NCBI GenBank assembly: GCA_020352555.1
Contig: CP070680.1
Span: 2,203,658-2,256,902 of the forward strand
Length of the DNA stretch: 53,245 bases
Source: Caldifarciminota bacterium
GTDB taxonomy: Bacteria; Hydrothermota; Tepidihabitantia; Tepidihabitantales; Tepidihabitantaceae
Direction: 5' to 3'
Below, piece after piece: positions 21,096-42,693 of the stretch. The position numbers and the translations under genes were made by a program. How positions within the stretch are numbered: the first letter of the stretch is position 1; each line of letters begins with the position of its first letter. The notes beneath the pieces are model-generated. The model was not told where the DNA came from. It was given only the letters and a program-made list of their open reading frames with translations, and searched no databases.

Positions 21096-21132
21096 CTCTC
21101 CTCCGAAGGCATCGTGAACGAGCCAGCACACA

Positions 21133-21900: not shown

Positions 21901-22734
21901 TCAGACAAAGCCTTCGTTTAGCTCCCGCAGAGCATCCCGGTATCCGCAAAGCTCATAGCATTCGTCCTTCAGATATCGGACAAGCCAGATGTACCACTCC
22001 TTGTAGTCTTGGTAGTAGTCACAGAAATACCCGTCATGAAAAAGGAGTGAGAAGTGGCTCACGCCGCGTGTGGCCGCATCGTTCAGGCGCCGGATCGTCG
22101 ACTCCCTCATCTGGCCAGGGGTACGGTTCTTCCACGGCCTGCCTACTCTGAAGACGTGTCCATCCATTAGTTGAACCGGGAATTCCCAGAAGTCGCCGGA
22201 GGACCAAGGGCCGGTATTGCTGAAAGTGGTCGAGCTGAACGAATACCCAGCGCTCTTGAGATTCAGCACGTCGCGCGCAGAGAGCAGGACTGATGACGGG
22301 GAGAAGCCGATGTTATGGATCCGGATGCCGAAGAGATCCTGTCCCGTCGCTTCCCGAAGTCCTGATAGTTCGGCGCGGACCTTGTCGGCCGACTCGTACT
22401 CGATCCCGTGCACGCCCACGTCGAAGCCCCGGCTCCGAATCCGCGAAACCCACTCCCTGGCACTTGTCAGGGTATAGCACAGCTTCCTGCCGTTCGCGGT
22501 GGCGACGAAGAATGTTGATGGAACACCATGTGCTTCGTCAAAGTCCATGAGTTCCTCAATGTGCTGCCATGAATCGGTCCAGAGGGACCGAAGAGCCAGC
22601 ATTAACTCGCGCCACTTCGTGTAGCCCAATACCCACTCGACCCCGAACCGGGCGACAAACTTCGGGATTATCAAATCCCGAACATGCTCCCAGGCGGTAA
22701 GATGATCCACGTCGTGAGAGATAATCACCTTCAT
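21901..22734 (-). CDS. Polysaccharide deacetylase-like (NodB-fold) protein
   Basis: A 277-residue protein. It begins with KVIISHDVDHLTAWEH, in which SHDVDH is the metal-binding D-D-H motif of the divergent polysaccharide deacetylase group. It continues with HGVPSTFFVATANG, VGVHGIEYESADKVRAEL (second His cluster), RIHNIGFSP and FSLLFHDGYFCDYYQDYKEW. Such enzymes remove N- or O-acetyl groups from glycans; several cluster-associated members are uncharacterised. The ATG follows the stop of the FemAB-like gene without a gap. No signal peptide is visible, so it would act in the cytoplasm, on a lipid-linked or nucleotide-linked substrate. Confidence 0.82.
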   Translation of the reverse strand: MKVIISHDVDHLTAWEHVRDLIIPKFVARFGVEWVLGYTKWRELMLALRSLWTDSWQHIEELMDFDEAHGVPSTFFVATANGRKLCYTLTSAREWVSRIRSRGFDVGVHGIEYESADKVRAELSGLREATGQDLFGIRIHNIGFSPSSVLLSARDVLNLKSAGYSFSSTTFSNTGPWSSGDFWEFPVQLMDGHVFRVGRPWKNRTPGQMRESTIRRLNDAATRGVSHFSLLFHDGYFCDYYQDYKEWYIWLVRYLKDECYELCGYRDALRELNEGFV

Positions 22735-23715
22735 CTAGAACAGCCTCCGCTTGGAAAGCTTCAAGGCCATCTCGAGCGGCAGCCAGGCTTTGCTCACGCG
22801 GAATCGCGGTGTCAGCCTGCCCCCGAACCCACGGAAGTACCTCTCGATTGCAGGTACTACCGAACCCTCGAAGTCGAAGGTCTGAAGGCCGATCTCTCGG
22901 GCGTGGCGAATGGACTCGAACATGGCCAAAGCACCTGCACCGTGGTGTTTGACTCTGGTATCATAACCCCCAAGCAGGTAGTACGCTGTCTCGGCACAGT
23001 GGACGACGAAGCTGCCGGCAATCGGTACGCCGCTCGATTGAACCACAAAGGCGTAGCTGTTGTCAGGTCGAGCGAAGGAGAAGAGAATCCTCTTGACGTA
23101 CTTGCTGTCCGCGTGCTTCCCCTGGCGGGCAAAGGTGGCTTCGACTAGTGAGGAGACAATCGAAAGAACCTCTGTTCGCTCAGCGCGCAGGCCATCCCTG
23201 CGCGCCTTGCCGATGTTGCGCCTTCGGGATTCTGACATTCCGGCGAGAATGGCCTCGTCCGTCTGGTCGAGCGGAAGCAGATAGGTGTAGTGAGGAGTCA
23301 CCTTGTAGTCGCGCCAGAGAAAAGGCAGGGAGTCGGTAACCCACCTCGCCAGCGGGACCGAGACCACGGCCGGATGGATGCTCTCGAGGCAGTCGGCAAT
23401 CGCGGTAAGCACCTGTCGAGACTCCTCGAGCATAGCCACAGGATGCTGGGCGCGGAACTCGAAGAACGGACCTATGTAAGGCGTCAGCGGAGGATTTCTC
23501 AGCACCGGCAGCCCCAGCTTCCTCTGTCGGAACAGGCAGAATCCGCCTCTCAGACTGCCGCCGGCATCGTAGATCCCGTAGCGAGTCAGTGCATCACCAA
23601 ACAGGTTCGTCCAAGCGGCAGAATCGAAGACAGTGCCATGATACTGCGCCAAATGATCGTACTGGGCGAGCTCGGAATCGCGAAGCACCTGAACCTCGAA
23701 TGCTCGCCTGGCCAT
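22735..23715 (-). CDS. FemAB/GNAT-like acyltransferase (second copy)
   Basis: The 326-residue protein shows the FemAB-like pattern: YHGTVFDSAAWTNLFG, LRNPPLTPYIGPFF, ESRRRNIGKARRDGLRAERTE (the conserved R-R-N-I-x-K-A helix, about residues 163-183), ATFARQGKHADSKYVKRILFSF, VPIAGSFVVHCAETAYYLLGGYD and HHGAGALAMFESIRHAREIGLQTFDFEGSVVPAIERYFRGFGG. The last block is a hallmark of cluster-associated GNAT proteins that act on sugar amines. It differs clearly from the copy at 16068-17168, so two distinct acylation steps are likely. It is followed without a gap by the deacetylase gene. Confidence 0.8.
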   Translation of the reverse strand: MARRAFEVQVLRDSELAQYDHLAQYHGTVFDSAAWTNLFGDALTRYGIYDAGGSLRGGFCLFRQRKLGLPVLRNPPLTPYIGPFFEFRAQHPVAMLEESRQVLTAIADCLESIHPAVVSVPLARWVTDSLPFLWRDYKVTPHYTYLLPLDQTDEAILAGMSESRRRNIGKARRDGLRAERTEVLSIVSSLVEATFARQGKHADSKYVKRILFSFARPDNSYAFVVQSSGVPIAGSFVVHCAETAYYLLGGYDTRVKHHGAGALAMFESIRHAREIGLQTFDFEGSVVPAIERYFRGFGGRLTPRFRVSKAWLPLEMALKLSKRRLF

Positions 23716-23882: not shown

Positions 23883-25016
23883 TCATTCATGCGAGCGTCG
23901 CGTGGTGCTAGTCGGGAACCCCTGAAGGAACGAGATGATAGTTTCGACCACAAAGTCCAACTGCTCCTTCGTCAACTCAGGATACATGGGCAGTGAGAGT
24001 ATCTCGTCCACAACTCGCTCTGTTGTTGGCAGTTCAACATCTGCAAATCCGGCGTTCGCGAATGCGGGCTGCCTGTGCAGCGGGACCGGGTAGTGGACGC
24101 CAGCGGAAATACCGCGGCCACGCAGATGCTCCAGCAGAGCGTCCCGCGCTCTTGTTCTGACCACGAAGAGGTGATAGACGGACTCCGCATGCTCTCGCTC
24201 CGCAGGAAGAGTCAGTAGTCCTCCCAGAAGGGTACGGTAGTTGTCAGCGCGTTCGCGCCGACGATGGTTCCACTCATCCAGTCTCCTTAATTTCACTCGG
24301 AGAACTGCAGCTTGAATCGTGTCCAGCCTCTCGCCGAAGCCAACCAGGTCGTGTTGGTACTTGCCACTGCGACCGTGGTCGCGCAGTTGACGCACCTTGG
24401 CTGCGAGCACCCGGTCGTTGGTGCTCACGGCCCCCGCGTCGCCCCACGCGCCGAGATTCTTCCCGGGGTAGAAGCTGAAGCATCCGACATGACCCAGTGT
24501 TCCGCACCTCCTCCCCTTGAACGTCGCGCCGTGGGCTTGAGCAGCATCTTCTACCAGCATCAGGCCGTGGCGGGATGCGATGCTGAACAGTGAATCCATG
24601 TCACAAGGCTGCCCGTACAGGTGCACAGGAACGATGGCCTTGGTCCTAGGTGTGATAGCCGCCTCAACTAGGTTCGAGTCTATCAGGTACGTGGACTCAT
24701 CAATGTCTACGAAGACCGGGCGGGCGCCCACATGCACAATCGCCTCTCCTGTGGCCGCGAACGTATGCGCGGCGGTGATTACCTCATCCCCTGGTCCTAT
24801 GCCACATGCGAGCAGCGCAAGGTGTAGGGCCGCGGTCCCGGAGGCCACACCGACGACCTCCGCGCACTCGAGGTACTTCGCGAACTCCTTCTCAAACAAA
24901 CCTATGTCGAGCCCGGACACGAAATCCGAACGGTCTCTGACCAGGCGTATCGCATCCTCGATCTCACGACCTACGGCCGGGTACTGGGCTTTGAGGTCCA
25001 CCAGAGGCACTCTCAC
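23883..25016 (-). CDS. DegT/DnrJ-family aminotransferase, WbpE/WlbC-like
   Basis: A 377-residue PLP enzyme. MRVPLVDLKAQYPAVGREIEDAI opens the protein, followed by SGTAALHLALLACGIGPGDEVITAAHTFAATGEAI, IVPVHLYGQPCDMDSL, LVEDAAQAHGATFKGRRCGTLGHVGCFSFYPGKNLGAWGDAGAV (catalytic Lys in PGKNLG) and HYPVPLHRQPAF. The opening and the FYPGKNLGA block are typical of WbpE/WlbC, which transaminates the 3-keto group of UDP-2-acetamido-glucuronate. The gene sits directly behind WbpB- and WbpD-like genes (ATGA overlap), the usual order of this pathway. The sequence is regular, unlike the PglE-like paralogue at 14773-16071. Confidence 0.92.
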   Translation of the reverse strand: MRVPLVDLKAQYPAVGREIEDAIRLVRDRSDFVSGLDIGLFEKEFAKYLECAEVVGVASGTAALHLALLACGIGPGDEVITAAHTFAATGEAIVHVGARPVFVDIDESTYLIDSNLVEAAITPRTKAIVPVHLYGQPCDMDSLFSIASRHGLMLVEDAAQAHGATFKGRRCGTLGHVGCFSFYPGKNLGAWGDAGAVSTNDRVLAAKVRQLRDHGRSGKYQHDLVGFGERLDTIQAAVLRVKLRRLDEWNHRRRERADNYRTLLGGLLTLPAEREHAESVYHLFVVRTRARDALLEHLRGRGISAGVHYPVPLHRQPAFANAGFADVELPTTERVVDEILSLPMYPELTKEQLDFVVETIISFLQGFPTSTTRRSHE

Positions 25017-25642
25017 GGGTATACAAGTCCCCCGTCCGCAAACCTGAGATCACCCACGTCGGCTATCCGCCTGGCAGGGTTTCCGACGACAACTGCATTC
25101 GGCGGGACGTCCTTCGACACAACAGATCCAGCGCCGACCAATGCCCCGCTGCCGATCTTGACGCCGGGCAGAATCGTCGCTCCAGCACCCACAGTCGCGC
25201 CCTCGCCCACCACCACGCCCTCGAGATGCTCCTTGCTGCGCTCAGACCCAGGGCAGCGGGTGTTGGTCAGGATCACCCCGGGTCCTACCCAGCATCCACG
25301 CTTCAGAATGCAGAACTCGGGGATGAATGCCCTAGTATGTATCCTCACGTCATCTTCGATAGTGGCATGGTGCTCTACGGCCGATATTGTCCCGACTGAC
25401 ACCCTGTCGCCGATGAGGTTGGACTCTCTGATGTTAACGTGGTTGCCGGTCTGAAAGTCGCGGCCGATCGAGTTGCCCGAGTATATGATTGTGTGACTCC
25501 GTATGGTGGCGTTGTCACCGATTGTCGTCTCAAGTCGACCCGTGCCTGCGATTGTGGGTGGTTCGCCGATTATGCAGAAATCACCGATGCTGATCTTGGT
25601 ACCGAGAGCGACGTTCGGATGGATTCTGTACGAGAGAGACAT
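25013..25642 (-). CDS. Hexapeptide-repeat N-acetyltransferase, WbpD/WlbB-like
   Basis: A 209-residue left-handed beta-helix acetyltransferase. Hexad repeats run through most of the chain (ISIGDFCIIGEPP.., TTIGDNATIRSHTIIYSGNSIGRDF, VVVGEGATVGAGATILPGVKIGSGALVGAGSVVSKDVPPNAVVVGNPARRI). The motif GPGVILTNTRCPGSE fits the WbpD/WlbB subgroup, which acetylates the 3-amino group of UDP-2-acetamido-3-amino-glucuronate with acetyl-CoA. It starts one base after the stop of the dehydrogenase gene and overlaps the aminotransferase start by ATGA. Confidence 0.9.
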   Translation of the reverse strand: MSLSYRIHPNVALGTKISIGDFCIIGEPPTIAGTGRLETTIGDNATIRSHTIIYSGNSIGRDFQTGNHVNIRESNLIGDRVSVGTISAVEHHATIEDDVRIHTRAFIPEFCILKRGCWVGPGVILTNTRCPGSERSKEHLEGVVVGEGATVGAGATILPGVKIGSGALVGAGSVVSKDVPPNAVVVGNPARRIADVGDLRFADGGLVYP

Positions 25643-25643
25643 A

Positions 25644-26741
25644 CTACTTGGTCTTCCGGCGTCCGCTCAAGGGAAGGTGCTCCCCAATTCGGAAGGTGTA
25701 ATCATCGCCAGTTAGGGGAATGGCCACTCTCCGAGCGGTGATGGCTGAGATGTAGGCTGCCTGCATTACCTCAATGGACTCCCTGCCCTGTGCGCTGTTC
25801 GTCGCTATCTGCTCCAGACCGTTCAGGACTCGGATGACATTGTCTATCACCTTGTCGTGATTCGACATCGACCCTCTGTATGTTCCGTAGTCGTTTGGCC
25901 CCGCACCTGTCTCAAGAACCGGGGTCTCACAGCCCTCTACGGACCAGTACTCCAGAAGGTTGAGATATTGGCCTCCCACCTTGATGGTACCGGTCGTACC
26001 CAGTGCTGTGAGTGCTCCCTCGAAATTCTCCTTGTGAGTGGCAGTGGTGTACTGGAGCACACCCTGTGCTCCGCTGCTGAATTCCAGGCTCACCATTCCC
26101 GTATCTTCAGTCTCAATGTAGGGATGTGCAAGGTTGTGCATCCGAGCGTCGACGGCTCGGACTGCGCCGCCAATCCACAACATCAGATCGAGGAAATGAG
26201 AGCACTGTGTCATGAGCGCACCTCCATCCAGTGCCATGGTGCCCCTCCAGTCATCCTCGATGTAGTACTCTCGCGTCCGGTTCCATAGAACGCTGCAGCC
26301 CATGAAGAGAATCCTACCCAACCGTCCGCTTCGGACGCACTCCTTCAGTGCTTTGACCGGAGGATTGAAGCGATTCTGCTTGACCAGGAAGAAACGCTTG
26401 CCGCTCGTTCTCTCGGCCCGGACCACTTGATCCGCATCACCAAGACAAATTGTCATCGGCTTCTCACACAGCACGTTCTTCCCGGCCATGAGTGCATCCA
26501 CGGACATCGAAGCGTGTAGCCCGCTGGGCGTGCATACGTTCACGACATCCAGTTCAGCATGGAGTGACTCCTCAAAGCTATTGAACCGGCGGCACTTGTA
26601 TGTCGTGGCGAACGACTCTGCCCGCTCAGGTACTATGTCGTAGACGCCAACCAGCATCGCGTCTCGGTTCCGGAGAATGTGTTCCGCATGACGCCTGCCG
26701 ATCTTGCCACACCCCAGTATCCCGAATCTTACCCTGGTCAT
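25644..26741 (-). CDS. Gfo/Idh/MocA-family dehydrogenase, WbpB/WlbA-like
   Basis: A 365-residue oxidoreductase. The Rossmann motif GILGCGKIGRRHAEHI is at residues 7-22; VVNVCTPSGLHASMSVDALMAGKNVLCEKPMTI (the EKP catalytic Lys) and KQNRFNPPVKALKECVRSGRLGRI follow, then DGGALMTQCSHFLDLMLWIGG with the catalytic His. The KQNR(F/Y)NP..L block is typical of WbpB/WlbA, the NAD-dependent oxidation of UDP-GlcNAcA at C3. The partners WbpD and WbpE follow directly. The UDP-GlcNAc 6-dehydrogenase (WbpA) needed upstream is not in this window. The ATG overlaps the stop of the double glycosyltransferase gene. Confidence 0.9.
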   Translation of the reverse strand: MTRVRFGILGCGKIGRRHAEHILRNRDAMLVGVYDIVPERAESFATTYKCRRFNSFEESLHAELDVVNVCTPSGLHASMSVDALMAGKNVLCEKPMTICLGDADQVVRAERTSGKRFFLVKQNRFNPPVKALKECVRSGRLGRILFMGCSVLWNRTREYYIEDDWRGTMALDGGALMTQCSHFLDLMLWIGGAVRAVDARMHNLAHPYIETEDTGMVSLEFSSGAQGVLQYTTATHKENFEGALTALGTTGTIKVGGQYLNLLEYWSVEGCETPVLETGAGPNDYGTYRGSMSNHDKVIDNVIRVLNGLEQIATNSAQGRESIEVMQAAYISAITARRVAIPLTGDDYTFRIGEHLPLSGRRKTK

Positions 26742-29275
26742 ATGCCCCTCGTATCCTGTGTTCGTGCCGGATCACAAGCACCGGGCTGGCTCATCTGACT
26801 GCGCAAGGTCCGCTGGAGACCGGTAACTTCGCATTCTCTCGGTGCTACGATTCCCTGCCCACGCCGAAACCGTCCTTCAATATCACAATAGGCCTTGAGA
26901 AGGCGTTCCTCCATTCTGCCCCAGTTCCACTTCTCTCTGACTGCTCTACGACCGTTCTCCCCCATCTGCCTGAGTCCCTCTTCGTCAGAGAGCATTTGGA
27001 TAACTCTCTCGGCAAGGGCCTCGGAACTTGTGGAGTCATACAGCAGACCGGCCTTCGATTCCTCCACGTAGGGTCGAATCGCCGGAAGGTCAGCTGACAG
27101 GACGGGTATCCCGCACACCATATACTCGAACAGCTTGATCGGCAATACCTGGGGATACTGGCCGACTGGAAGGAAGGGTATCAGGCCGATTCTCGCCACG
27201 CTGATGTAGTCGAAGACCGAGGTGTGGCTCACCCAAGGAACGTGGTCAATGCAGCCTGTCAGATCGAACTCGGTCCTCTGCTCGTTGACCTGGCTCAGGA
27301 GCGGCTCGCGCAACTCGCCGACCAGTAGAAGCATGATACGTGGATCATGACGCTTCAGCGTGCGCATCGCACCTATCATCTGGAACATGCCGCGTTCCTG
27401 CGATAGGGAGCCTTGGTAGAGGATGATCTTCCTGTCTTGGTACCGACGGAGTAACTCACGCTGTCGCTGTCGGTTGAAACCGATCTCTCCTTGCCGGACG
27501 TAGTTGAATATCGTGACAGCATTGCATCCCGCCTCCCGGAACCTGGCTGTCAGTGGGTCTACCACCGCGATCACCATGCTGCATCGCCGTGCAGCCAGCT
27601 CCTCAAAGATGGCGACAGAACGCTGGAGTGCGCTGCGTGCCAAGCGGGGCAGCCCGAGCAGCACGGCTGCCATGGGGTAGAATTCGTGAACATCATAAAC
27701 CAGTTCAGCCCCGATGAGCACTCTGACGAAAGGCAAGACAGCAGCCAGGTCGAAATCATGGAAGTGGCATATGTCCGTCCGCTGCCGTCGGAGTTGCTGG
27801 ACGGCCTCGCGCACCATCAGGGCCCGTCCGACCAGACCCTGACGCTCCTGAAGTGGCACGTAGCGAACATGGGGATGGAAACCAAACTCTTGTGCTTTCT
27901 CGCTTGGCGCTATCAGAGTGACCGTGTCGTAGCGCTTTGCCAGGCTGAGCACTTCCTTGTAGTAGATCCGGTCATCCTTGGCTGCGTGCCGTGTCGTAAC
28001 GACGCAGACCCTGAGCTTCTTCGTCGACACTCCCGAAGACCGGTTGCTTCTTGAGTTCGTCTCAGGAGCTGACGAACTAGAGCAGTGGGCACCTAGGGCT
28101 GGGGTGATCCCGGCCATCCTTGCACGGGAGGAGCCAACAATGTCTTCCAGCCAGTTTGTCACCGCTCTCGCCCGCAGATTGATGTCAAACTGCCTTGACT
28201 TTCTAAGGCAAGCCTCAGACATTCTCCTCCGTCTGGCCGGGTCATTCATCAGCGTGACAATGGCGTCCCGTATGGCCCGAACATCCATCGGGTCAACTCG
28301 GATCGCGACATCGTCATCTAAGATGTCGTCCATGTAGCGCCCGTTGGATGATATGATCGGCAAGCCACAAGCCATTGCCTCCAAGACCGAGTTGCACGAG
28401 CCCTCGACTTCCGTAGGCAGCACGAATGCATCTGCTGCGGACAGCGCAACCGAAACCTCCTCGTGGGGCAGAGTTCCTTTGAAGGCGACGGGGTCGCTGT
28501 CCGCCACTTTGACCGGACCGTGGCCGACCAGAAGCAGGGCGACTCCGGATAATCCTCTCACGGCCTCAAGCAAGCGCTTCAATCCCTTCTGCTCATAGAA
28601 GTGCCCGACAAATGCGATGACAAACAGCTCTTCGGCGATGCCGAACCGGGTGCGTGCCTCCGTGCGATTGCCCGGTATGAATTGAGACAGGTCAACTCCG
28701 TTGGGGAACACCCGTGTCTTGTCGCTGGGGATTGCGAGCTCCCTGACCAACCCATCTCTGACAACTGAGGAGACGGCAAGGAACCCGCCCGCGGGCCTGA
28801 AGTCCTGGACCGCTTTGTCGAACCCGAATGGCTGAACCGACCAGAACTCACCTTCACCAACCGACACGACTGAAGGCCGATTGATGCGGGACCCCAGATG
28901 TACGGCAGCGTGCCCGGCGCAATACAGAAAGTGACCGTAGACCAAGTCGGGTGACCAGTCAATCCGCTGCAATGTGCGGCGGACGCAGGCAGTGAAACTC
29001 CTCAGGGTCAACATGGCAGTATTGAACCCTGGCATTTGCCTCGCGGAGAAGGAAACGTAGCGGGGACGCAAGACCCGGACTGCTGGACCGCCGGCCTGCT
29101 CAAGGGCCTCTCTTGGTGCGAGCGGCCAGTTGCGGGGAGCCACAACACTCAACGGGGCGATGACAACACACTCCACGCCAGCGCGCGAGAGAGCCAGCAC
29201 GAACTGCCGCACGAAACCGCCCTCCATCTGTCGATTGGCTGAAGGGTAGTTCTGTGTGACGACCGCCAGCTTCAT
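26738..29275 (-). CDS. Fused double GT4 glycosyltransferase
   Basis: The ATG at 29275 (MKLAVVTQNYPSANRQMEGGF) is the natural start, giving 845 residues. The first GT4 domain (about 1-390) contains VYGHFLYCAGHAAVHLG, VFPNGVDLSQFIPG, FVIAFVGHFYEQKGLKRLLEA and LPTEVEGSCNSVLEAMACGLP. A Ser/Arg-rich linker of about 35 residues follows. The second domain (about 422-820) starts with a fresh N-domain (LRVCVVTTRHAAKDDRIYYKEVLSLAK) and includes ICHFHDFDLAAVLP, LVYDVHEFYPMAA, ILYQGSLSQERGMFQMIGAM and PIKLFEYMVCGIPVLSADLP. Both domains look complete with their E-x7-E type regions, so one polypeptide could add two sugars in succession. The reading frame is continuous, with no sign of a stop between domains. 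Confidence 0.87.
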   Translation of the reverse strand: MKLAVVTQNYPSANRQMEGGFVRQFVLALSRAGVECVVIAPLSVVAPRNWPLAPREALEQAGGPAVRVLRPRYVSFSARQMPGFNTAMLTLRSFTACVRRTLQRIDWSPDLVYGHFLYCAGHAAVHLGSRINRPSVVSVGEGEFWSVQPFGFDKAVQDFRPAGGFLAVSSVVRDGLVRELAIPSDKTRVFPNGVDLSQFIPGNRTEARTRFGIAEELFVIAFVGHFYEQKGLKRLLEAVRGLSGVALLLVGHGPVKVADSDPVAFKGTLPHEEVSVALSAADAFVLPTEVEGSCNSVLEAMACGLPIISSNGRYMDDILDDDVAIRVDPMDVRAIRDAIVTLMNDPARRRRMSEACLRKSRQFDINLRARAVTNWLEDIVGSSRARMAGITPALGAHCSSSSAPETNSRSNRSSGVSTKKLRVCVVTTRHAAKDDRIYYKEVLSLAKRYDTVTLIAPSEKAQEFGFHPHVRYVPLQERQGLVGRALMVREAVQQLRRQRTDICHFHDFDLAAVLPFVRVLIGAELVYDVHEFYPMAAVLLGLPRLARSALQRSVAIFEELAARRCSMVIAVVDPLTARFREAGCNAVTIFNYVRQGEIGFNRQRQRELLRRYQDRKIILYQGSLSQERGMFQMIGAMRTLKRHDPRIMLLLVGELREPLLSQVNEQRTEFDLTGCIDHVPWVSHTSVFDYISVARIGLIPFLPVGQYPQVLPIKLFEYMVCGIPVLSADLPAIRPYVEESKAGLLYDSTSSEALAERVIQMLSDEEGLRQMGENGRRAVREKWNWGRMEERLLKAYCDIEGRFRRGQGIVAPRECEVTGLQRTLRSQMSQPGACDPARTQDTRGI

Positions 29276-29312
29276 GTCAACACGTCTGTGCCATCGCAAT
29301 GCTCTTCATGAT

Positions 29313-30506
29313 CTACCCTGGCAGGACCTCAATCGGGGTCGCTAGACTCAACCCCCGCATGTTGGCCAAGGTCCTGACAACATGGGCGACCCGCAGATTC
29401 GAGCAGGCGTTCTGGTAGAAGAAGCCTGGTTCGAAGCGCCAATCCTCCCCCTCCAGTCGCCATCTCCCTGTGTGGGCATTGCGCTTGGTCGGGTCCTTGA
29501 TGGCACCAATCAAACATTGCAGTTCGTTCACCAGATAGCCGGGTTTCCCGTCGTCTCCTGCAGTCACAAGAACGTCCACAGCCATGCTGGTGAATCTTCC
29601 CTCGTCCGTGACCGACTTGGCAAAGTCAAGCAATCCCCTCGGAGGAGCAGCCCACCCAATCTCCCCAGAGCCGCTGGCGAAGTCGCCGACCCGGGTCTTC
29701 CGTCTGCAAAGGTAGTCGTCCCCGATTCTGACGATTCGCCACTCATGGTGATGGGGGACGTAGCTCTGGAACAGAACGCAGCCCCGCTGCCGGTCACGAC
29801 TATCCCATTCTCTTGGACGGATCCCCCGGCCGAATGCCCTCCGCACCATCCTACGGGCTGCGCGCCTGTTCCTCAGCACAAAAACACCATGCGCCGCAGC
29901 GCTGGTATCGGTCTTGCATACAAGAGGATACTCAGCTGCTTCGACGAACGCCAGCGCCCTCTCACGGTCGTAGAATACGTCGGTCCGAGGGTGCGAGACC
30001 TCGTGAGCCACCAGCCAGTCGCGCATCCGCCGCTTGCTCTCCCACAGCCAGAGCTCTGAATACGTAGGGTAGAGTGGGTACCCCATATCCTCGACAAGAA
30101 CTCGCAGCCGCTCGTCAAACATGTGGCGCAGGCTGCTCAACAGAGTCGACGGCGAGGCAAGAAACGCATCACACCCCGACTCGCGCACCAGCTCTACCCA
30201 GTTGCCTTGGCAGATGTCCACCAGCCGGTAAGCCACTCGCATCTCCTGGCAGGCCTTGACGTGGTGAGAGAAGTAGTAGGACGTGTCGGTTACGACGCCG
30301 ATGGTGAAGGGATACGGCGAGAGGTAGTCTGATCGAACGGGAATCGGCCCTCCGAAGAGCTCCTCGGCCTCGCGGCGGAACTGCTCTGACCTGAACGCTG
30401 CGTAGGGTATCGCGGACTTGACCGCACGCTTCAGCCACCTGGGCGCCAGTCTTCGTCCAAGCGCACTATGCAGAAGTCCGGAAGCGACCATCTTCTGTCC
30501 AGGCAT
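29313..30506 (-). CDS. ATP-grasp-type ligase
   Basis: A 397-residue protein. The N-terminal part has FTIGVVTDTSYYFSHHVKACQEMRVAYRLVDI, a pre-ATP-grasp domain. The ATP-grasp core follows: SKRRMRDWLVAHEVSHPRTDVF, AEYPLVCKTDTSAAAHGVFVLRNRRAA (nucleotide-binding Lys and small loop), VLFQSYVPHHHEWRIVRIGDDYL, and the metal site VDVLVTAGDDGKPGYLVNELQCLIG. Such ligases activate a carboxylate with ATP and join it to an amine, which fits amide formation on a uronic acid or amino acid. The ATG at 30506 (or 30491) immediately follows the asparagine-synthase-like gene. A second, different ATP-grasp protein is at 45084-46211. Confidence 0.78.
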   Translation of the reverse strand: MPGQKMVASGLLHSALGRRLAPRWLKRAVKSAIPYAAFRSEQFRREAEELFGGPIPVRSDYLSPYPFTIGVVTDTSYYFSHHVKACQEMRVAYRLVDICQGNWVELVRESGCDAFLASPSTLLSSLRHMFDERLRVLVEDMGYPLYPTYSELWLWESKRRMRDWLVAHEVSHPRTDVFYDRERALAFVEAAEYPLVCKTDTSAAAHGVFVLRNRRAARRMVRRAFGRGIRPREWDSRDRQRGCVLFQSYVPHHHEWRIVRIGDDYLCRRKTRVGDFASGSGEIGWAAPPRGLLDFAKSVTDEGRFTSMAVDVLVTAGDDGKPGYLVNELQCLIGAIKDPTKRNAHTGRWRLEGEDWRFEPGFFYQNACSNLRVAHVVRTLANMRGLSLATPIEVLPG

Positions 30507-32288
30507 CTAAGACCCTGTCACCCCGCCCGAGTCAAAGCCCAGGTGTTTGCGGAATGAATCCAAGAAGTGGGCGATGTAGTAGCATCTGCTACGATTGACG
30601 TCTTCTGAGAGCAACACATTCCAGTCTATCGGCAGGTTGATGCTTCTAAGGATCCGCAGCCCGTCCTGCACGCTGGACGGTGGTCTGCATATGCTATCTG
30701 GGTGCCGTTTGCGAACAGAACACATTGCCCTCTGCACGTGGGCACGAAGCCTTGGTCCCAGAGGAACCAGACTCTTGACTCGGTCGCTCAACCTGGTCCG
30801 CAACGGCATGTGCTCGAACGAATAGCCGTAGTATGAAGCAATGCCGGCGGCCCGGCTGTCCAGGGTCCGGATCATCTCCGCCTCGAGTTCGCCTCCGACC
30901 CCGATGTGCGGTGTCGCTTTCAGAGACTCTCTGGTCACAGACCAATCTGCGAACGGCATGAGTGCGAACGAGAGCTGATTCTCGGCGCAGAGCCTGGGAC
31001 CGGCGCTGTAGGGAAGCCAGACGTCCCGATACCATCGACGAGCGAGTTGACGGTCCAGTCTGTTCAGACTATCGACTCCCATGAGCCGGGCGTACTTCTG
31101 GCCGAGGCGGTCGGTCAGCGCTTCTGCTGACTTCTCGTCTCGAACAGCGGCCGTGCACCCAGGCCTCATTACGAAGAACTGCAACCACTGCCCGAAGTCG
31201 TACGAACCGGCGGACAAGTGCTCAGGATTGCGGTAGAGTTCGCCGCCGAGACCGTTGAACCCCAAGCGGGTCGGCCCCATTGCCTTGACGCGCAGAGCTC
31301 TTGTATGCACGTCATTGAAGGTTCCCATGGTCAGGTTGGTCCGGCCGTCCCAGTAGTAGAGAGCATCTTCCATGTTGGCCCTGAGTTCCTTGCCATCAAG
31401 ATGCTCCCAGGTCCGGACCGGAATGGGCGTCAGAAGAACCCCTGCATGTCTCGTTAGTTTCTCGGCAACGTCCTGTTCCTTGTCATGCCCGGGGCTGCGG
31501 TAGGTATACGTGAATACACCTAAACCTGCCTCTCTGGCGAGCAGGAGCAGCAAACGGCTGTCATAGCCTCCGGACACACCCATGCTCGTCCCTGTCTCCG
31601 CCGACAGCGCACGGATGCGCTCGAAGTACTCGCGGAGCACTGTCAGCTGCCGCTCTACGCATTCAGAAAGGCTCCTCGGACATAGCCCGTCGTCAGTAGT
31701 TGATGGACGGGCAACCTGGAAATCTGCTATTGGTGACCTGAATCTCCTCTGCTTCTCCTGCGTCAGCAGCACGATGTCTTCGAGGAGCGTGTCCGGGCCG
31801 ACAATGCTCCCGGTCAGCAGCTGCTCAAGCAATGCGTCTCGATTCACGGGGTGCGACGCACCGTCTGAGACAAGAACCGCTTGGAGGGAGCTTGAGACGA
31901 CAGCGCCGTCTGCGCTTGAGAAAACGTGATAGAGACCCGAAGGGTCGATTGCCATGGAGACCCGTGAGCCGTCGAAGAAGAGCAGGCAGTAGCAGCCAAC
32001 CAGTTCACTTCGATCGAAATTCCCTGATTCCCAGTCTCCAAGCAGTTCCCTCATGCCGTCGGCATACCCCAGCCCTTTGTAGACCGGGGTGCCGGCGCTG
32101 AAAAGCCTGCACCCCGACTCAGAGTCAAACCAGTTCTGAACAGGGTTCATCTGCTTCTGAAAGAGCAGAAGCCTGGCGTCACCGAGGAGAAACTCGGCCG
32201 GCTCTGAGAAACCCTTGTGGCGGAAGACAGCACGCGCCCGGGCCGTATCCTGTGACCCGGATTCCTTCACGAGCAGGAACGCACCCAT
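30507..32288 (-). CDS. Asparagine synthase-like amidotransferase without N-terminal cysteine
   Basis: A 593-residue protein. The synthetase domain carries the PP-loop MGVSGGYDSRLLLLLARE (about residues 238-255) that binds ATP; TYTYRSPGHDKEQDVAEKLTRHAG follows. The N-terminal region resembles the Ntn glutaminase domain (LVGCYCLLFFDGSRVSMAIDPSGLYHVFSS) but begins MGAFLLV, so the catalytic Cys-2 of AsnB is missing. The enzyme may use ammonia from another source or an amine as the nucleophile. Its start lies 2 bases from the preceding stop, and the ATP-grasp gene follows directly. Relatives in O-antigen clusters (for example WbpS) amidate uronic acids; here that role is inferred. Confidence 0.8.
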   Translation of the reverse strand: MGAFLLVKESGSQDTARARAVFRHKGFSEPAEFLLGDARLLLFQKQMNPVQNWFDSESGCRLFSAGTPVYKGLGYADGMRELLGDWESGNFDRSELVGCYCLLFFDGSRVSMAIDPSGLYHVFSSADGAVVSSSLQAVLVSDGASHPVNRDALLEQLLTGSIVGPDTLLEDIVLLTQEKQRRFRSPIADFQVARPSTTDDGLCPRSLSECVERQLTVLREYFERIRALSAETGTSMGVSGGYDSRLLLLLAREAGLGVFTYTYRSPGHDKEQDVAEKLTRHAGVLLTPIPVRTWEHLDGKELRANMEDALYYWDGRTNLTMGTFNDVHTRALRVKAMGPTRLGFNGLGGELYRNPEHLSAGSYDFGQWLQFFVMRPGCTAAVRDEKSAEALTDRLGQKYARLMGVDSLNRLDRQLARRWYRDVWLPYSAGPRLCAENQLSFALMPFADWSVTRESLKATPHIGVGGELEAEMIRTLDSRAAGIASYYGYSFEHMPLRTRLSDRVKSLVPLGPRLRAHVQRAMCSVRKRHPDSICRPPSSVQDGLRILRSINLPIDWNVLLSEDVNRSRCYYIAHFLDSFRKHLGFDSGGVTGS

Positions 32289-32290
32289 AT

Positions 32291-33652
32291 CTATGGGGAA
32301 AGGCGAGAGGTCCGACGCAGTACAGCCGGTGACGAGGTGGTCGTATCTCCGACCGCCCCGCCCTCGGCAGGAGTTACACTGCGCAGGTTTCGTTCCATCG
32401 CGCGCGTGTGTCCAACCATGACGCCGATCAGAAGAAGATGAACGGGATTCAAGAAATTGGGCGTACCCAGCCCAAGCAGTAGCAGGGTGATGATCATGGC
32501 CTGGTACAGGCCGACCGTGTAGCGGGACGTCGGGTCCGAACGCGCGTTCAATACTCGTCGCAGTCTGCGCCAGAGTACGAGATAGACCGAGAAGTAGAGC
32601 AAGAAGCCCACGACCCCGGTCGTTGCCAGCACTTCCATGAAGTCCGAGTGCGCATACGCCCGCATAGAGGAGCGGAGCGTGAAGTTGCCGAGTCCCACGC
32701 CATTGATGGGCGCATCCAGGAACATCGACCAGCCCTCTCGATAGAGCTCCAGGCGATCACGCGATGCACTGGGGTCGCTCAACACAGACTCGAACCTGCC
32801 GCCTACAGGTGCACGCTCCACAATAGACCGCCCGGCCATGAACAGCCCTGCGACCACCATGAGTAGAATCAGAGCTCTTCGGAACCTGGAGATCCTGGCC
32901 CTGCCATAGGCCATGGCCGCCCAAGCCAGTGCGAAGAAGCCGACGGACAGAATGCTCTTTCGCGAGCCCGAGAGCACAAGAATGGCACCAATGAGAGGCA
33001 GTACCAACAGAGGCCAGAGAGTGAGCTTCTGTTTGCCCCGATGCCACAGCAGATACGCCACGCCGAACACCGCATACAAACAAAGGAATCCAAGGAAGTT
33101 CTCGTTGCCTGCAAAAGATACGAGGCGCCGGACCGTGTCGCCGCTCAGAGCAGCGGCCAGTTCTCCGGTGCTGTGGGAGAACCACCCCAGGCCCAGCGGC
33201 ACCACCAAAAGGAACAGGAAGACGATTGTCGGCTTGCCTCGCCTGGCAACGTATACGGCAACAGCGAATAGGAGCGCCGCCTCCTGTGCCAGCAGTCGCA
33301 CGGAGTCCCGGACCGGACCCTGAGCTTCGGCGAGCAGGAGCCCGGTCAAAGCTCCCCAGCCAATGAAGGCAGCGAAAAGGAGCACTTCGGCCGGGAAACC
33401 ACCTCCTTGCTGCAGCCAGTACATGATCGCCAGCAGTGTCAGAAGTATGCCGAGCAGACGGTTCCATTGGGACAGCCAGGGATACAGGGTGTTGAGAAGG
33501 AAGCCTGCAATGAATAGCGCCAACACGACCTCGAACAGCCGCAGCAAAAAGCCAGTTCCAGCTCTCGGTGCCGAGGTATCACCCAGGCCCCTCGAGCTCA
33601 GACCAGGAACAGGCGGGACAGACTGAACCCGGGGCCGCATGGTCGGCCTCAT
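32291..33652 (-). CDS. O-antigen polymerase/ligase family membrane protein (Wzy_C)
   Basis: A 453-residue polytopic protein with about 11-12 membrane helices starting near residue 34. The Wzy_C segment is clear: LVLSGSRKSILSVGFFALAW, SASRDRLELYREGWSMFLDAPINGVGLGNFTLRSSMRAYAHSDFMEVLATTGVVGFLLYFSVYLVLW. The H-S/N-x-x-L/M-E motif in the large periplasmic loop is typical of WaaL-type ligases and Wzy polymerases. In a cluster that also carries a Wzm/Wzt exporter, a ligase or a second chain-joining activity is possible. The first 33 residues are Pro/Arg-rich; a later start is possible. Confidence 0.85.
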   Translation of the reverse strand: MRPTMRPRVQSVPPVPGLSSRGLGDTSAPRAGTGFLLRLFEVVLALFIAGFLLNTLYPWLSQWNRLLGILLTLLAIMYWLQQGGGFPAEVLLFAAFIGWGALTGLLLAEAQGPVRDSVRLLAQEAALLFAVAVYVARRGKPTIVFLFLLVVPLGLGWFSHSTGELAAALSGDTVRRLVSFAGNENFLGFLCLYAVFGVAYLLWHRGKQKLTLWPLLVLPLIGAILVLSGSRKSILSVGFFALAWAAMAYGRARISRFRRALILLMVVAGLFMAGRSIVERAPVGGRFESVLSDPSASRDRLELYREGWSMFLDAPINGVGLGNFTLRSSMRAYAHSDFMEVLATTGVVGFLLYFSVYLVLWRRLRRVLNARSDPTSRYTVGLYQAMIITLLLLGLGTPNFLNPVHLLLIGVMVGHTRAMERNLRSVTPAEGGAVGDTTTSSPAVLRRTSRLSP

Positions 33653-36468: not shown

Positions 36469-38442
36469 CTACCTCGACGGAACGGCCTGGTGGCCGATCC
36501 GACCCCTTTTGCTGCAACATGACACAGGACTGTGCTGTGCATTGGAGAATCCCTCTGACCTTGCGGACTGGTGCAGTAGCTGTTCCCGTCCGCCTGCCTT
36601 CGCGCGCTGGGTCAGCCAGAGGCTCAGCAGAGTCATAGCGTAGATGCGGTGGCTCAGCGCCGGTCCGCCCCGTAGGAAACGGCGAACAACGGCGCTCGCC
36701 CAGGTAGAGCGGGACTCGCCTGTCAGAGACCAAGCCGCCGTCTTCACGTCTTCCCTGAGCTTGGCTGTTCTGATCGCGCGAAGAAGAACGTCCACCCTGG
36801 AATTGAAACTCCCCTTTGGCTTCTCGAGAATTCGCCCGGGCAGGTGGCGGGACATGTATTCCCGAAGAACTATCTTGTGCGATTGCCGGGTGAAGCAGAG
36901 ACCCTCAGGGAGAGTTGAGAAGAAGGACGCCAGCCGCGAGTCACAGAATGGGAAGCCCGCCGTGACGTTGAAGTACTTGGCTGGCTGCGCCAACTTGGGG
37001 AACGTCGTCTCCGACGCCCATATTCGATCAAGTGCTTGTGCATTGAAGGTGTTGGGGTGCAGACTGCTGCTGGACTTGCCAAGTCGCCCCATCTCGGTGT
37101 GTGCGAGGTTCGCGTCGATGCCCAATGACTTCAGAAGTTCCCTCTCCGACCACCCGTTCCAGGAAACGAAAAGCTCACGAGGCGGCTTTCTGAATCTGGC
37201 GACTTGCCTCCGCAACCTTCTCGGCAGGAAACTGCAAGCGGCTGATGGAAGCTGGAGCGCGAAGTAACGAAGCAGCGGCAGCGACAGGTAGAGCCGTTCG
37301 AATCGGCTCAGGGTGTATCCCATGTACGCCTCGGGGCCAGAGCCTTCGAGGACGGTATCGATGTCGGACGGCAGGTTCTTCAACGCCAAGTAGGTAGGCA
37401 GCCCTGCCGGGTCCCCCAAGGGTTGGCCATGTACGAGTACGAACTCATCGAGGGCATCGAGGTAGTCGCTCTGGGAGAACTTGAGTACGAGATGCTCGAT
37501 GCCCAGGTGCCGGGCGACCACGGCCGCGTCTTCGCTCTCGTCAATCGAGGAGTCTTCGAATCCCACGGTTACTGCCAGATACCTGCGGGGGTCTATCTTC
37601 GACGCGGCAACGCATATGCTGGATGAGTCCTTCCCGCCGCTCAGGAGAATCGCAGTCCGCCCTGTCGGCGCGGTGCGCGCTTCCACCGCCTCTGCCAGCA
37701 GCCTGTCGAACGTACCAACCGCCTCGGTCAAGCTGTTCTCGGACTCAGGCACGTGCCTTTCCTGCCAGAAAGGAACAGGCACTCGCGAGTGCATTGATAC
37801 CGAGCGGTCGTGCACTTCGCTTACCTCGATGGCCCTTCCGACCGGCACGCTCTTGACGCCCGCGTATGCAGTGCGGGGTGAGGGGACGTATAGGTAGTGA
37901 AGGAACTGCGCCAGCGCAGCAGCATCCGGCTGCCGGTTGGGGTTCAGATGCCCCAGCGCTGATAGATGTGTTGCGAAACATACGGTCTGCCCCTGCCGTT
38001 CGTAGTAGAGAGCTTGGGTGCCAAAGGGGTCACGAGCCAGCACGACTGTGCGGTTCAGGTTGTCGCACACAACTGCAGCCCAGTTTCCGTTGCAGCCGGC
38101 CAGTGAATCCACCCCGCCCTCAGCGTAGGCGCTCTCGAAGCAGGCTCTGGCCCTCAGAAGAGGGTCCTGTGACGTGAAGGAGTAGCCGCGAGGGGGGCAG
38201 ACCTTGCCGAACACAAATGCATGCGCGCGCCGCGATCCGCCAGCCGACTCCAGTCGAGCATCCGGCTCGGGCAGCCTCTCGCTCTCGCGGTAGAACAGCC
38301 TGCAGGCCACGGTGGGCAATCTCCAGGTTACGGACCTCACGGCGCCTGATGGACCGCTGGCAAAGGCGCGGCTCATCGAGTCCAGAGTGCGCAGGTCCTG
38401 GTCCGCATCATGCGCAAACGCCACTCCGCAGAGGCCGATCAT
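36469..38442 (-). CDS. Asparagine synthase-like amidotransferase (glutamine-type, longer copy)
   Basis: The 657-residue protein is the fuller of two AsnB-like enzymes. The N-terminal Ntn domain begins MIGLCGVAFAHD, with Cys at position 5 and not position 2. The glutaminase-like region continues with GCNGNWAAVVCDNLNRTVVLARDPFGTQALYY. The synthetase half has the PP-loop AILLSGGKDSSSICVAASK (about residues 263-281), VTVGFEDSSIDESEDAAVVARHLGIEHLVL and FPFCDSRLASFFSTLPEGLCF..HKIVLREYMSRHLP. Such proteins in glycan clusters probably amidate sugar uronic acids or couple amines. The last 30 residues (after SLWLTQRAK) are not conserved-looking. Confidence 0.85.
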   Translation of the reverse strand: MIGLCGVAFAHDADQDLRTLDSMSRAFASGPSGAVRSVTWRLPTVACRLFYRESERLPEPDARLESAGGSRRAHAFVFGKVCPPRGYSFTSQDPLLRARACFESAYAEGGVDSLAGCNGNWAAVVCDNLNRTVVLARDPFGTQALYYERQGQTVCFATHLSALGHLNPNRQPDAAALAQFLHYLYVPSPRTAYAGVKSVPVGRAIEVSEVHDRSVSMHSRVPVPFWQERHVPESENSLTEAVGTFDRLLAEAVEARTAPTGRTAILLSGGKDSSSICVAASKIDPRRYLAVTVGFEDSSIDESEDAAVVARHLGIEHLVLKFSQSDYLDALDEFVLVHGQPLGDPAGLPTYLALKNLPSDIDTVLEGSGPEAYMGYTLSRFERLYLSLPLLRYFALQLPSAACSFLPRRLRRQVARFRKPPRELFVSWNGWSERELLKSLGIDANLAHTEMGRLGKSSSSLHPNTFNAQALDRIWASETTFPKLAQPAKYFNVTAGFPFCDSRLASFFSTLPEGLCFTRQSHKIVLREYMSRHLPGRILEKPKGSFNSRVDVLLRAIRTAKLREDVKTAAWSLTGESRSTWASAVVRRFLRGGPALSHRIYAMTLLSLWLTQRAKAGGREQLLHQSARSEGFSNAQHSPVSCCSKRGRIGHQAVPSR

Positions 38443-40726: not shown

Positions 40727-41494
40727 TCAGTGCAGTTCTCCTTCACAGCCAGGCATCATCCCGTCTGAAGGCCCTTCGAAGTGACTCTGGCATTCCGCAG
40801 AAGCCTCCAGATACTGGAGAACCGCAGAGGACGACTTCCACATCAGGACGTCGACAATCGACAACGCAGGCTCGAAATCATACCCATCACACCGGTATGT
40901 CATGTTCTCGAACCTCTGGATCGTCAGCTTGATGCCGGCCTTCTCGAACCCGGCCTTGTCGAATAGTGCCTCTCCCCCAGGCGGGTTGACGTACTCACTC
41001 GCCCCGAGTGCCTCTGAGATACGCAGCGCCCAATCGCCCGGGCCTGCAACCGGACCCAGGCTGAGGTTCATGTCTGAGAAGAACTCGTACCGAAACGGTA
41101 TCCGGAGATGCCGGCATATCTTGTCCAGTATGGCGATGTTCAGCCGAGCGAGTGAAGGCTCGTCGTTGTCAAGGCAATCCCGAACCAGGTCGGCAGTCGC
41201 TTCGTAGTAGTGAGCTCTCTTTCGGTAATGCACCAGTTGACCGCACACCCGGTCACGCCAGTCCCTTCCTTCCTTGACGAAGATGTCCGCTATCGGTGTG
41301 TTCCGATGGTGCTTCCGAAGCGGAGCAGCAATGTACTGCCAGCCGGTATTGGGGTGCAGAATCCGGTTCCGGTTCACCCATCCGTGCCTGATGTACTGCG
41401 CCGTATCGAACACAATCCACCGGTCGGTCCTGTGTATCAAGTCGAAGTACCCCAGGTACGGGAAGAAGTAAGGCTGCATGATGGCCAGTTTCAT
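40727..41494 (-). CDS. WbqC-like family protein (second copy)
   Basis: The ATG at 41494 overlaps the stop of the VioA-like aminotransferase gene (ATGA), giving 255 residues that begin KLAIMQPYFFPYLGYFDLIHRTDRWIVFDTAQYIRHGWVNRNRIL. The family blocks (YIAAPLRKHHRNTPIADI, HYRKRAHYYEATADLVRDCL, YVNPPGGEALFDKAGFEKAGIKL) are all present. Direct coupling to a 4-keto-sugar aminotransferase supports the idea that WbqC proteins work on the amino sugar that enzyme makes, for example in acyl transfer; this is not established. The copy at 20379-21095 is clearly diverged. Confidence 0.9.
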   Translation of the reverse strand: MKLAIMQPYFFPYLGYFDLIHRTDRWIVFDTAQYIRHGWVNRNRILHPNTGWQYIAAPLRKHHRNTPIADIFVKEGRDWRDRVCGQLVHYRKRAHYYEATADLVRDCLDNDEPSLARLNIAILDKICRHLRIPFRYEFFSDMNLSLGPVAGPGDWALRISEALGASEYVNPPGGEALFDKAGFEKAGIKLTIQRFENMTYRCDGYDFEPALSIVDVLMWKSSSAVLQYLEASAECQSHFEGPSDGMMPGCEGELH

Positions 41495-42693
41495 GCACGT
41501 GTACCTGCACGAGCCCGGATCTCGCCGACATAGAGACAGATTCTCTCCACCGTCTCTGCCGATATCCCGCTGTAGGTCGGCAGCGTCAGTATCCTCTCTG
41601 CCACTCGCCTTGCCACTGTCAGCGGGTCCCGCGTCTGGACATTCTGGTAGCACGCGAAATCCGGCACCAGCGGATAGAAGTACCTGCGGGCGTGCACATT
41701 GAGCTTCCTCAACTCCTCGTACAGCCTGTCCCGGCTCATGCCGAAATCTGCTTCATCCACCTCAACCGGCACGTACCCGTAGTTGTAGCGGATCTCTGGC
41801 GGCAGAGGCGGCGGGATGCGGATGCCCGGCACGTCGGCGAGACGCTCCCGGTAGATCGCCTCGATCGCCTGGCCCTTGGAAGTCAGTTCGCCGATGTGCC
41901 TCAGCACCAGTGTGCCCATCAGCGCCTGCATCTCCATCATTTTCGCGTTGGTGCCCGGCATCACTACCTCGACTTCATTTCTGAATCCGAAGTTCCTCAG
42001 GTAGTCGAACGTCTGCTTGAGCCCGGCGTCGCGGAAGACAAGCATCCCGCCTTCCATCGAGTGGTAAAGCTTGGTCGCATGGAAGCTGAACATGCTCATG
42101 TCGCCGTAGTGGGCGATGGACTTGCCGCCGACTTCCACACCGAACGCGTGCGCGGCGTCATAGATGAGCGTCAGTTTGTGCCGCCGCGCTATATCTGCCA
42201 GTTCTTTCACCCTGCAGGGATAGCCGAACACGTGGACGGCGAGAATCGCGGAAGTCCAGGGAGTAATCGCCGCCTCGACCTTCTCAGGGTCGAGGGTGAA
42301 GTAGTCCGGTTCAATGTCCACGAATACCGGCCTGATTTTGCACCAGAACAACGCGTGGGTGGTGGCGACAAAGGTGAACGGCGTAGTAATCACCTCGCCT
42401 GATATCCCCATCCCCTGGAGGCCGAGTTGCAGAGCCAGAGTCCCATTGTTGAACAGACAGACGTTGTCCGTCCCGAAGTGCCTGCCAAGCAGGCTGGCAT
42501 AGCGCTTAAGAACCGGGCCGTTGTTCGTCAGCCAGTGGTTGCCCCACATCTCCTTCAGCCCGTCGACAAACTCATCAAACGGAGGCAGATAGGGACGGGT
42601 AACGTATACCGGTTCGTCAAAACGCTCCAGGTCGATACGTTCGGTTTGCAGCCTGTCAGCCGGCGAGGACCCTGTATTGGTGCGCTTCAGCAC
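41491..42693 (-). CDS. DegT/DnrJ-family aminotransferase, VioA-like
   Basis: A 400-residue PLP enzyme. The segment VTRPYLPPFDEFVDGLKEMWGNHWLTNNGPVLKRYASLLG opens as in VioA (dTDP-4-amino-4,6-dideoxyglucose forming). The blocks LFNNGTLALQLGLQGMGISGEVITTPFTFVATTHALFW, LAVHVFGYPCRVKELADIA, IYDAAHAFGV and SMFSFHATKLYHSMEGGML (catalytic Lys in ATKLYH) are diagnostic. The expected product is a dTDP-4-amino-4,6-dideoxy sugar, which WbqC- or FemAB-type neighbours could acylate. dTDP-glucose synthesis genes are not in the window. Confidence 0.9.
   Translation of the reverse strand: MLKRTNTGSSPADRLQTERIDLERFDEPVYVTRPYLPPFDEFVDGLKEMWGNHWLTNNGPVLKRYASLLGRHFGTDNVCLFNNGTLALQLGLQGMGISGEVITTPFTFVATTHALFWCKIRPVFVDIEPDYFTLDPEKVEAAITPWTSAILAVHVFGYPCRVKELADIARRHKLTLIYDAAHAFGVEVGGKSIAHYGDMSMFSFHATKLYHSMEGGMLVFRDAGLKQTFDYLRNFGFRNEVEVVMPGTNAKMMEMQALMGTLVLRHIGELTSKGQAIEAIYRERLADVPGIRIPPPLPPEIRYNYGYVPVEVDEADFGMSRDRLYEELRKLNVHARRYFYPLVPDFACYQNVQTRDPLTVARRVAERILTLPTYSGISAETVERICLYVGEIRARAGTRA

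Follow-up and report, generated by a model that had tools for sequence, protein, structure and literature searches.

Identification of P0001

An AsnB-like gene that has kept its PP-loop and encodes no N-terminal cysteine raises the question of whether its product still forms amides and, if so, where the amine comes from and to what it is joined. Such a gene was found in the 53,245-nucleotide stretch of DNA analysed here (the window), which belongs to a single-contig genome of 3.26 Mb, together with a second gene of the same family.

30507..32288, minus strand: P0001, AsnB-superfamily protein of 593 amino acids with a degenerate N-terminal Ntn domain lacking Cys, PP-loop SGGYDS and PFAD at residues 445-448
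36469..38442, minus strand: P0002, second AsnB-family protein with Cys at position 5, PF00733 at 1e-37, glutamine-site residues apparently absent

The 593-residue reading frame begins with MGAFLLV and contains SGGYDS at residues 239-244, both as described in an earlier note on this DNA. An alternative start that would place Cys at position 2 was ruled out, as the 156 open codons 5' of the ATG contain no ATG, GTG or TTG and only two CTG codons. The four orthologs begin alike, the starts of the five proteins (P0001 included) being MGAF, MGAF, VGLF (from GTG), MGAF and MGSF, so the claim that the catalytic cysteine is missing holds. An AGGAGG motif lies a short way 5' of the ATG of the most distant ortholog.

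These four orthologs were found in other WOR-3 genomes with 70, 61, 58 and 28 % identity to P0001. The first three come from three genomes of the same family as the window genome, and the last from one genome of another family (G083). Cys is absent and SxGxDS is retained in all five proteins, the PP-loop of the most distant one being SSGFDS. Positions S239, G241, D243, S244, D314, E350 and P445-F446-D448 are invariant in the five orthologs over the range of 28-70 % identity. A search of the 147 WOR-3 genomes with P0001 gave five strong matches and twelve weak ones (E 9.2e-7 to 9.6e-4). A wider scan of genome contigs found three P0001-type loci, all in candidate division WOR-3 and apparently identical with three of those above, with strict peptide patterns that may underestimate the range beyond this division. 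No relatives were confirmed in viral contigs and none were found in plasmids.

The glutamine site in P0001 and P0002

The glutamine site of P0001 and its three closest orthologs (four of the five orthologs) was compared with nine Cys-bearing control rows in two alignments. The residues considered were the Arg, Asn, Glu and Asp listed in PMC3885529, with Asn and Glu taken from the NGEIYN motif and Asp from (T)D(A/T)E. In all four rows the Cys is lost, Asn is replaced by A, T or V, Glu by T, and Asp by M or V or by a gap; one glutamine-site Arg and the whole PP-loop are retained. The nine controls contain Cys, Asn and Asp without exception, Glu in seven (Ala in two) and Arg in five (Leu in four). 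Glu and Arg are therefore weak markers of a glutaminase, being replaced in 2/9 and 4/9 of the Cys-bearing controls. By these alignments, P0001 has lost the glutaminase site, and its PP-loop is intact. The lysine of the RxKxGF segment of AsnB is catalytic; the segment of P0001 that apparently matches it reads SxYGxSF, and this lysine may be missing.

As a control, the best GATase_7 matches in the 147 WOR-3 genomes were examined at 30 loci, a selection by glutaminase-domain score that favours intact sites, and Cys was found right behind the start in 28 of them (26 ATG-Cys and two GTG-Cys), with an MSGIC start in the other two. AsnB-like WOR-3 proteins selected by weak similarity to P0001 mostly lack Cys-2, so the loss of Cys is not unique to P0001. 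Nine other AsnB-like WOR-3 proteins without Cys-2 (L025, L026, L031, L032, L034, L076, L077, L079 and L080) lie on separate tree branches from P0001, and the seven of them that were scanned belong to the AsnB family by Pfam. Two of the nine (L025 and L026) differ from P0001 in having a Cys at position 5. Their identity to P0001 is 15-19 % (L025, L026, L031, L032 and L034) and 13-14 % (L076 and L079).

P0002 begins with MIGLC, which agrees with the Cys-5 reported previously, and it is the only Asn_synthase match by Pfam at E <= 1e-3 in the whole genome. Its Cys is preceded by CTC and not by a start codon, and the glutamine-site Asn, Glu and Asp are absent in the two alignments, in a region that is weakly aligned. 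The contrast implied earlier between one dead and one live glutaminase is thus unsupported. For the same reasons both proteins are unlikely to be standard glutaminases, and the sequence of P0002 does not support a role as the glutamine-using counterpart of P0001.

Superfamily placement and phylogeny

No Pfam family matched P0001 at E <= 1e-3, nor did any NCBIfam family, TIGR03108 included; the best weak Pfam match was QueC, another PP-loop family. When the five orthologs were scanned, only one of them matched Asn_synthase, with an E value of 0.28. Direct sequence searches of solved structures gave chance-level matches only for P0001 in phmmer (best E 0.35), and QueC at 0.32 for the five-ortholog profile. 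The same profile matched a set of five AsnB-like WOR-3 proteins at 99 % and E 2.5e-18 over residues 86-484, which includes parts of both domains; in this set GATase_7 was found in all five proteins and Asn_synthase in four at E <= 0.01. Against a set that includes canonical AsnB the E value was 1.5e-7 over residues 94-286, and against a single canonical AsnB the match was 3 % only.

A structure model of P0001 built with canonical AsnB rows had moderate confidence (pLDDT 62.7, pTM 0.70). The model from the four orthologs alone was unusable (pLDDT 35), so the fold match depends on the choice of canonical rows. Foldseek returned twelve chains at E <= 0.001, every one a carbapenam or beta-lactam synthetase. 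The twelve best VIA entries (Z 12.5-15.1, the next entry having Z 7.9) are two-domain enzymes of the AsnB superfamily, namely TsnB9, carbapenam synthetase, beta-lactam synthetase and asparagine synthetases. The highest Z of 15.1 belongs to the TsnB9 hydroxyamidotransferase (7YLZ), which by its entry title is an AsnB relative using an amine other than ammonia; it shares 10 % identity with P0001 and acts in another pathway. By profile and by this moderate-confidence model, P0001 belongs to the AsnB superfamily as a two-domain (Ntn and PP-loop) protein, a family member missed by Pfam although its PP-loop is retained. The relationship to beta-lactam synthetase-like enzymes suggested in the earlier note stands in so far as the superfamily, the intact PP-loop, the lost glutaminase site and the nearest solved folds (carbapenam and beta-lactam synthetase among them) are concerned; what falls away is P0002 as the glutamine-using contrast.

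A tree of 34 rows was built from 16 of the 30 Cys-type loci (14 were omitted for size), one more Cys-type row from L076 and other AsnB-like rows. The five orthologs form one clade with SH-aLRT values of 99 and 100. In the first tree, a strong branch sets apart all 17 Cys-type rows (two of which begin MSGIC) together with P0002 and a row from L030, both without Cys-2. The tree was rebuilt after removal of four long-branch rows. A topology that groups the orthologs with the rows having Cys was not rejected (p-AU 0.379), the placements of the ortholog attachment having p-AU values of 0.379 and 0.331.

The N-terminal Cys is lost in beta-lactam synthetase, carbapenam synthetase and the lasso-peptide cyclases. 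P0001 is thus a variant and not a new category, since Cys-less relatives of AsnB are already known. All three of these enzyme groups are reported to belong to the AsnB family (PMC13060819).

Conserved gene order with an ATP-grasp gene

P0001 lies between two closely spaced genes.

29313..30506, minus strand: P0003, ATP-grasp ligase-like protein, start codon right behind the P0001 stop, GARS_A at 24.7 bits, under the cut-off of 27
32291..33652, minus strand: Wzy/O-antigen ligase-like membrane protein, PF04932 at 2.3e-15, ending 2 bases before the P0001 start

The order Wzy, AsnB-like and ATP-grasp occurs in all five ortholog loci, with gaps of 0-10 bases in the window and in the G083 locus (L035). 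The latter also contains an SGGSDS protein of 556 amino acids adjoining the Wzy gene (12008-13675), which starts MKFFTYFS and has no Pfam match at E <= 0.01. P0003 itself has no Pfam match above cut-off. Its relatives were found in 21 of the 147 WOR-3 genomes at E <= 1e-3 and are strong (E < 1e-20) in twelve. In the stretches read from nine of these twelve, an AsnB-like gene without Cys-2 lies within about 2.4 kb, five being of the window type and four of another subfamily. Members of the latter start MPGI or MSGI, lie 1 to 2.4 kb from the ATP-grasp gene in four genomes and have an altered PP-loop, TGGFDG or TGGFDS.

L076, 11012-12859: AsnB-like protein of the altered-PP-loop subfamily near the ATP-grasp family
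L077, 12527-14374: the same
L079, 11141-12976: the same
L080, 1922-3763: the same

No AsnB-like gene was found near the ATP-grasp gene in the stretches read from G006, G011 (where the contig ends just past the gene) and G031. G053 has, in addition, a canonical AsnB with its Cys at a distance of 2.2 kb from the ATP-grasp gene. A second kind of ATP-grasp gene, RimK-type and beside PGA_cap, occurs elsewhere in the window (45084-46211 and 46215-47363), with a related pair in L081 from another WOR-3 genome (37 and 35 %).

A relative of P0003 on an E. coli plasmid (31 % over 75 %) adjoins carboxyethyl-ornithine synthase, with a nucleotide-sugar dehydrogenase in the same locus. DNA relatives of this plasmid gene were found in 5 of 5,426 E. 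coli genomes. In three of the five, and judging by its label in a fourth, the adjoining gene encodes a carboxyethyl-ornithine synthase or an 'alanine dehydrogenase'. The identity of this neighbour suggests, from gene order, that the ATP-grasp family acts on amino-acid-like substrates. On plasmid and chromosomal islands of E. coli (L042 14977-17053, L082 and L083 11953-14078), the ATP-grasp-like gene pair lies among insertion sequences.

The surrounding polysaccharide cluster

Genes of sugar and polysaccharide metabolism continue on the same strand beyond P0003.

26738..29299, minus strand: double GT4 glycosyltransferase, downstream of the ATP-grasp gene, relatives in L009, L010 and L011
25644..26741, minus strand: Gfo/Idh dehydrogenase, WlbA/WbpB-like, best PDB match 3q2i at 8e-65, listed as dehydrogenase/oxidoreductase
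25013..25642, minus strand: hexapeptide acetyltransferase, WbpD-like by position only, best PDB match QdtC
23883..25016, minus strand: DegT aminotransferase, WbpE-like, with WbpE (3nyu, 3.5e-83) fifth among its PDB matches
22735..23715, minus strand: FemAB/GNAT-type aminoacyltransferase-like protein, taken as VimA-like from its role, PF13480 at 2.3e-14, PF02388 at 2.4e-10, TIGR03019 at 8e-6 and far under its cut-off
21901..22734, minus strand: polysaccharide deacetylase-like protein, taken as VimE-like from its role, PF01522 at 8.6e-4, under its cut-off

The structures 3q2i and 3q2k we take to be WlbA. Relatives of the FemAB protein at 73-74 % are present in G002 and G017, and at E <= 1e-5 relatives occur in three of the twelve ATP-grasp genomes. 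Those of the deacetylase-like protein are found in L010, L011 and L035, the last of which exceeds the PF01522 cut-off. Both FemAB/GNAT and deacetylase genes were observed in the loci of G000, G002, G017, G083 and G053, a count in which some members are under the Pfam cut-off, the families are generic, the likeness to VimA and VimE is by role alone, G058 was scanned for FemAB only and the G008 contig ends. Two genes of the WbqC family (20379-21131 and 40727-41653) are also located in the cluster.

In P. gingivalis, type IX secretion cargo is reported to be joined to a linking sugar that is made by Wbp- and Vim-type genes and receives its glucuronamide, a uronamide, from the AsnB-type WbpS (PMC7468200, PMC13086638). 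The full Wbp pathway as a shared substrate route is weakened by the distribution of the WbpB-like gene, which at E <= 1e-30 was found in only one of the twelve ATP-grasp genomes, the window's own. A di-N-acetyl uronic acid is therefore unlikely to be the shared substrate. At least 144 sorting tails were matched in G000, where 150 of 265 candidates were scored, along with 30 matches to C25 peptidase. As the tail was found in 147 of 147 WOR-3 genomes, however, type IX secretion was rejected as a partner that could set this cassette apart. A link between the P0001 cassette and type IX secretion is thus put forward as a hypothesis only. Just beyond the glycan cluster the window encodes a beta-helix protein with a type IX sorting tail (10671-12779).

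Proposed function of P0001

We propose, with a probability of roughly 55 %, that P0001 is a glutamine-independent ligase which adenylates its substrate, forms amides on a surface glycan and is paired with the ATP-grasp ligase. Its activity, the adenylation chemistry, the glycan substrate and the division of labour are what we infer. P0001 would adenylate a carboxyl of a surface-glycan precursor, either C6 of a uronic acid or an amino-acid-like substituent, and would couple it to an amine that is not derived from glutamine. P0003 would act on the same glycan residue, with one enzyme forming the sugar amide and the other building or extending the amine partner. The work might also be split differently, with P0003 making the sugar amide and P0001 acting on another carboxyl. 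The nearby Wzy, ATP-grasp, FemAB, deacetylase-like and glycosyltransferase genes suggest, from their order, a surface-glycan product whose amine is supplied by a separate molecule, and speak less for a lactam. Uronic acid-amino acid amides, including N-epsilon-(1-carboxyethyl)lysine, are described as glycan parts (PMC10609480).

P0003 could make the sugar amide because a TupA-like ATP-grasp domain does so in the C. jejuni capsule, where Cj1438C is reported to join serinol-phosphate or ethanolamine-phosphate to glucuronic acid through an amide at its C6 carboxyl (PMC11800379). This C-terminal amidoligase of Cj1438 shares ATP-dependent amide formation and a capsule cluster with what is proposed for P0003 and P0001. 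However, it works without an AsnB, and TupA was absent from the Pfam matches of P0003 at E <= 1e-3; the likeness of the two is one of description. By analogy, the C. jejuni ligase shows that an ATP-grasp enzyme can make the sugar amide without an AsnB, which speaks against our preferred reading.

Another parallel is WbpS and the XrtA/PEP-CTERM AsnB (TIGR03108; P. gingivalis PGN_1234), which share with P0001 the AsnB superfamily and a probable surface-glycan pathway and have deacetylase (VimE) and GNAT-type (VimA) partners, whose counterparts beside P0001 are putative. P0001 differs from WbpS in having no N-terminal Cys, a lost glutamine pocket and an ATP-grasp neighbour. If only the glutaminase half had been lost, P0001 could take ammonia, either free or supplied by a further protein, and make a plain uronamide in the way that WbpS makes one with glutamine as donor. 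AsnB-type enzymes are reported to accept ammonia (PMC13060819), the P. gingivalis linking sugar owes its glucuronamide to WbpS (PMC7468200), and the window holds WbpB-, WbpD- and WbpE-like genes as well as the FemAB and deacetylase-like genes. This explanation nevertheless appears unlikely. The glutamine site has lost its Cys, Asn and Asp in all four rows compared, none of the 11 other ATP-grasp genomes gave a match to the window's WbpB-like gene at E <= 1e-30, and P0001 matches no NCBIfam family at E <= 1e-3.

Somewhat less probable again is that P0001 has no catalytic activity, or serves as a scaffold, and aids an ATP-grasp enzyme that makes the amide by itself. P0001 has diverged very fast, to the point of having no Pfam match at E <= 1e-3, its RxKxGF-like segment is altered, and the PP-loop varies, being SSGFDS in G083 and, in the second subfamily linked to ATP-grasp, TGGFDG or TGGFDS; in C. 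jejuni the ATP-grasp domain is reported to suffice (PMC11800379). Against this, S239, G241, D243, S244 and E350 are invariant over the five orthologs at 28-70 % identity.

The closing of an internal amide or lactam, as in beta-lactam and carbapenam synthetases (1JGT, 1Q15), where an amine within the substrate is the nucleophile, is the least likely explanation: those enzymes share with P0001 the two-domain AsnB fold, the retained PP-loop and the lost Cys and make up 12/12 of its Foldseek chains at E <= 0.001, but in VIA their Z differs by no more than about 2.5 from that of TsnB9 and the asparagine synthetases, and the neighbourhood of P0001 is a polysaccharide cluster. In the region of the Tyr-Glu catalytic dyad of these synthetases, the alignment of P0001 is of low reliability.

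Returning to the glutamine-independent ligase, we consider its conserved pairing with the ATP-grasp gene to be the aspect most worth following; the compact pair provides two genes to express and assay. Our literature search returned nothing that unites ATP-grasp, O-antigen, amide, uronic acid and amino acid, and nothing on type IX secretion in WOR-3. More speculatively, a two-ligase module consisting of a glutaminase-dead AsnB and an ATP-grasp enzyme might attach aminoacyl or peptidyl groups to a surface sugar by an amide bond, the sugar being conceivably the type IX cargo-linking sugar in WOR-3; we regard this wider idea as doubtful. Routes to type IX linking sugars are described as only partly known, and in Prevotella the pathway that transfers alanine is stated to be unknown, with several pathways perhaps existing (PMC11969387). 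The relevance of P0001 lies here and in the amide linkage of amino acids to surface sugars: if the idea is true, the two-ligase module would supply linking sugars that bear amino acids without recourse to a glutamine-dependent AsnB.
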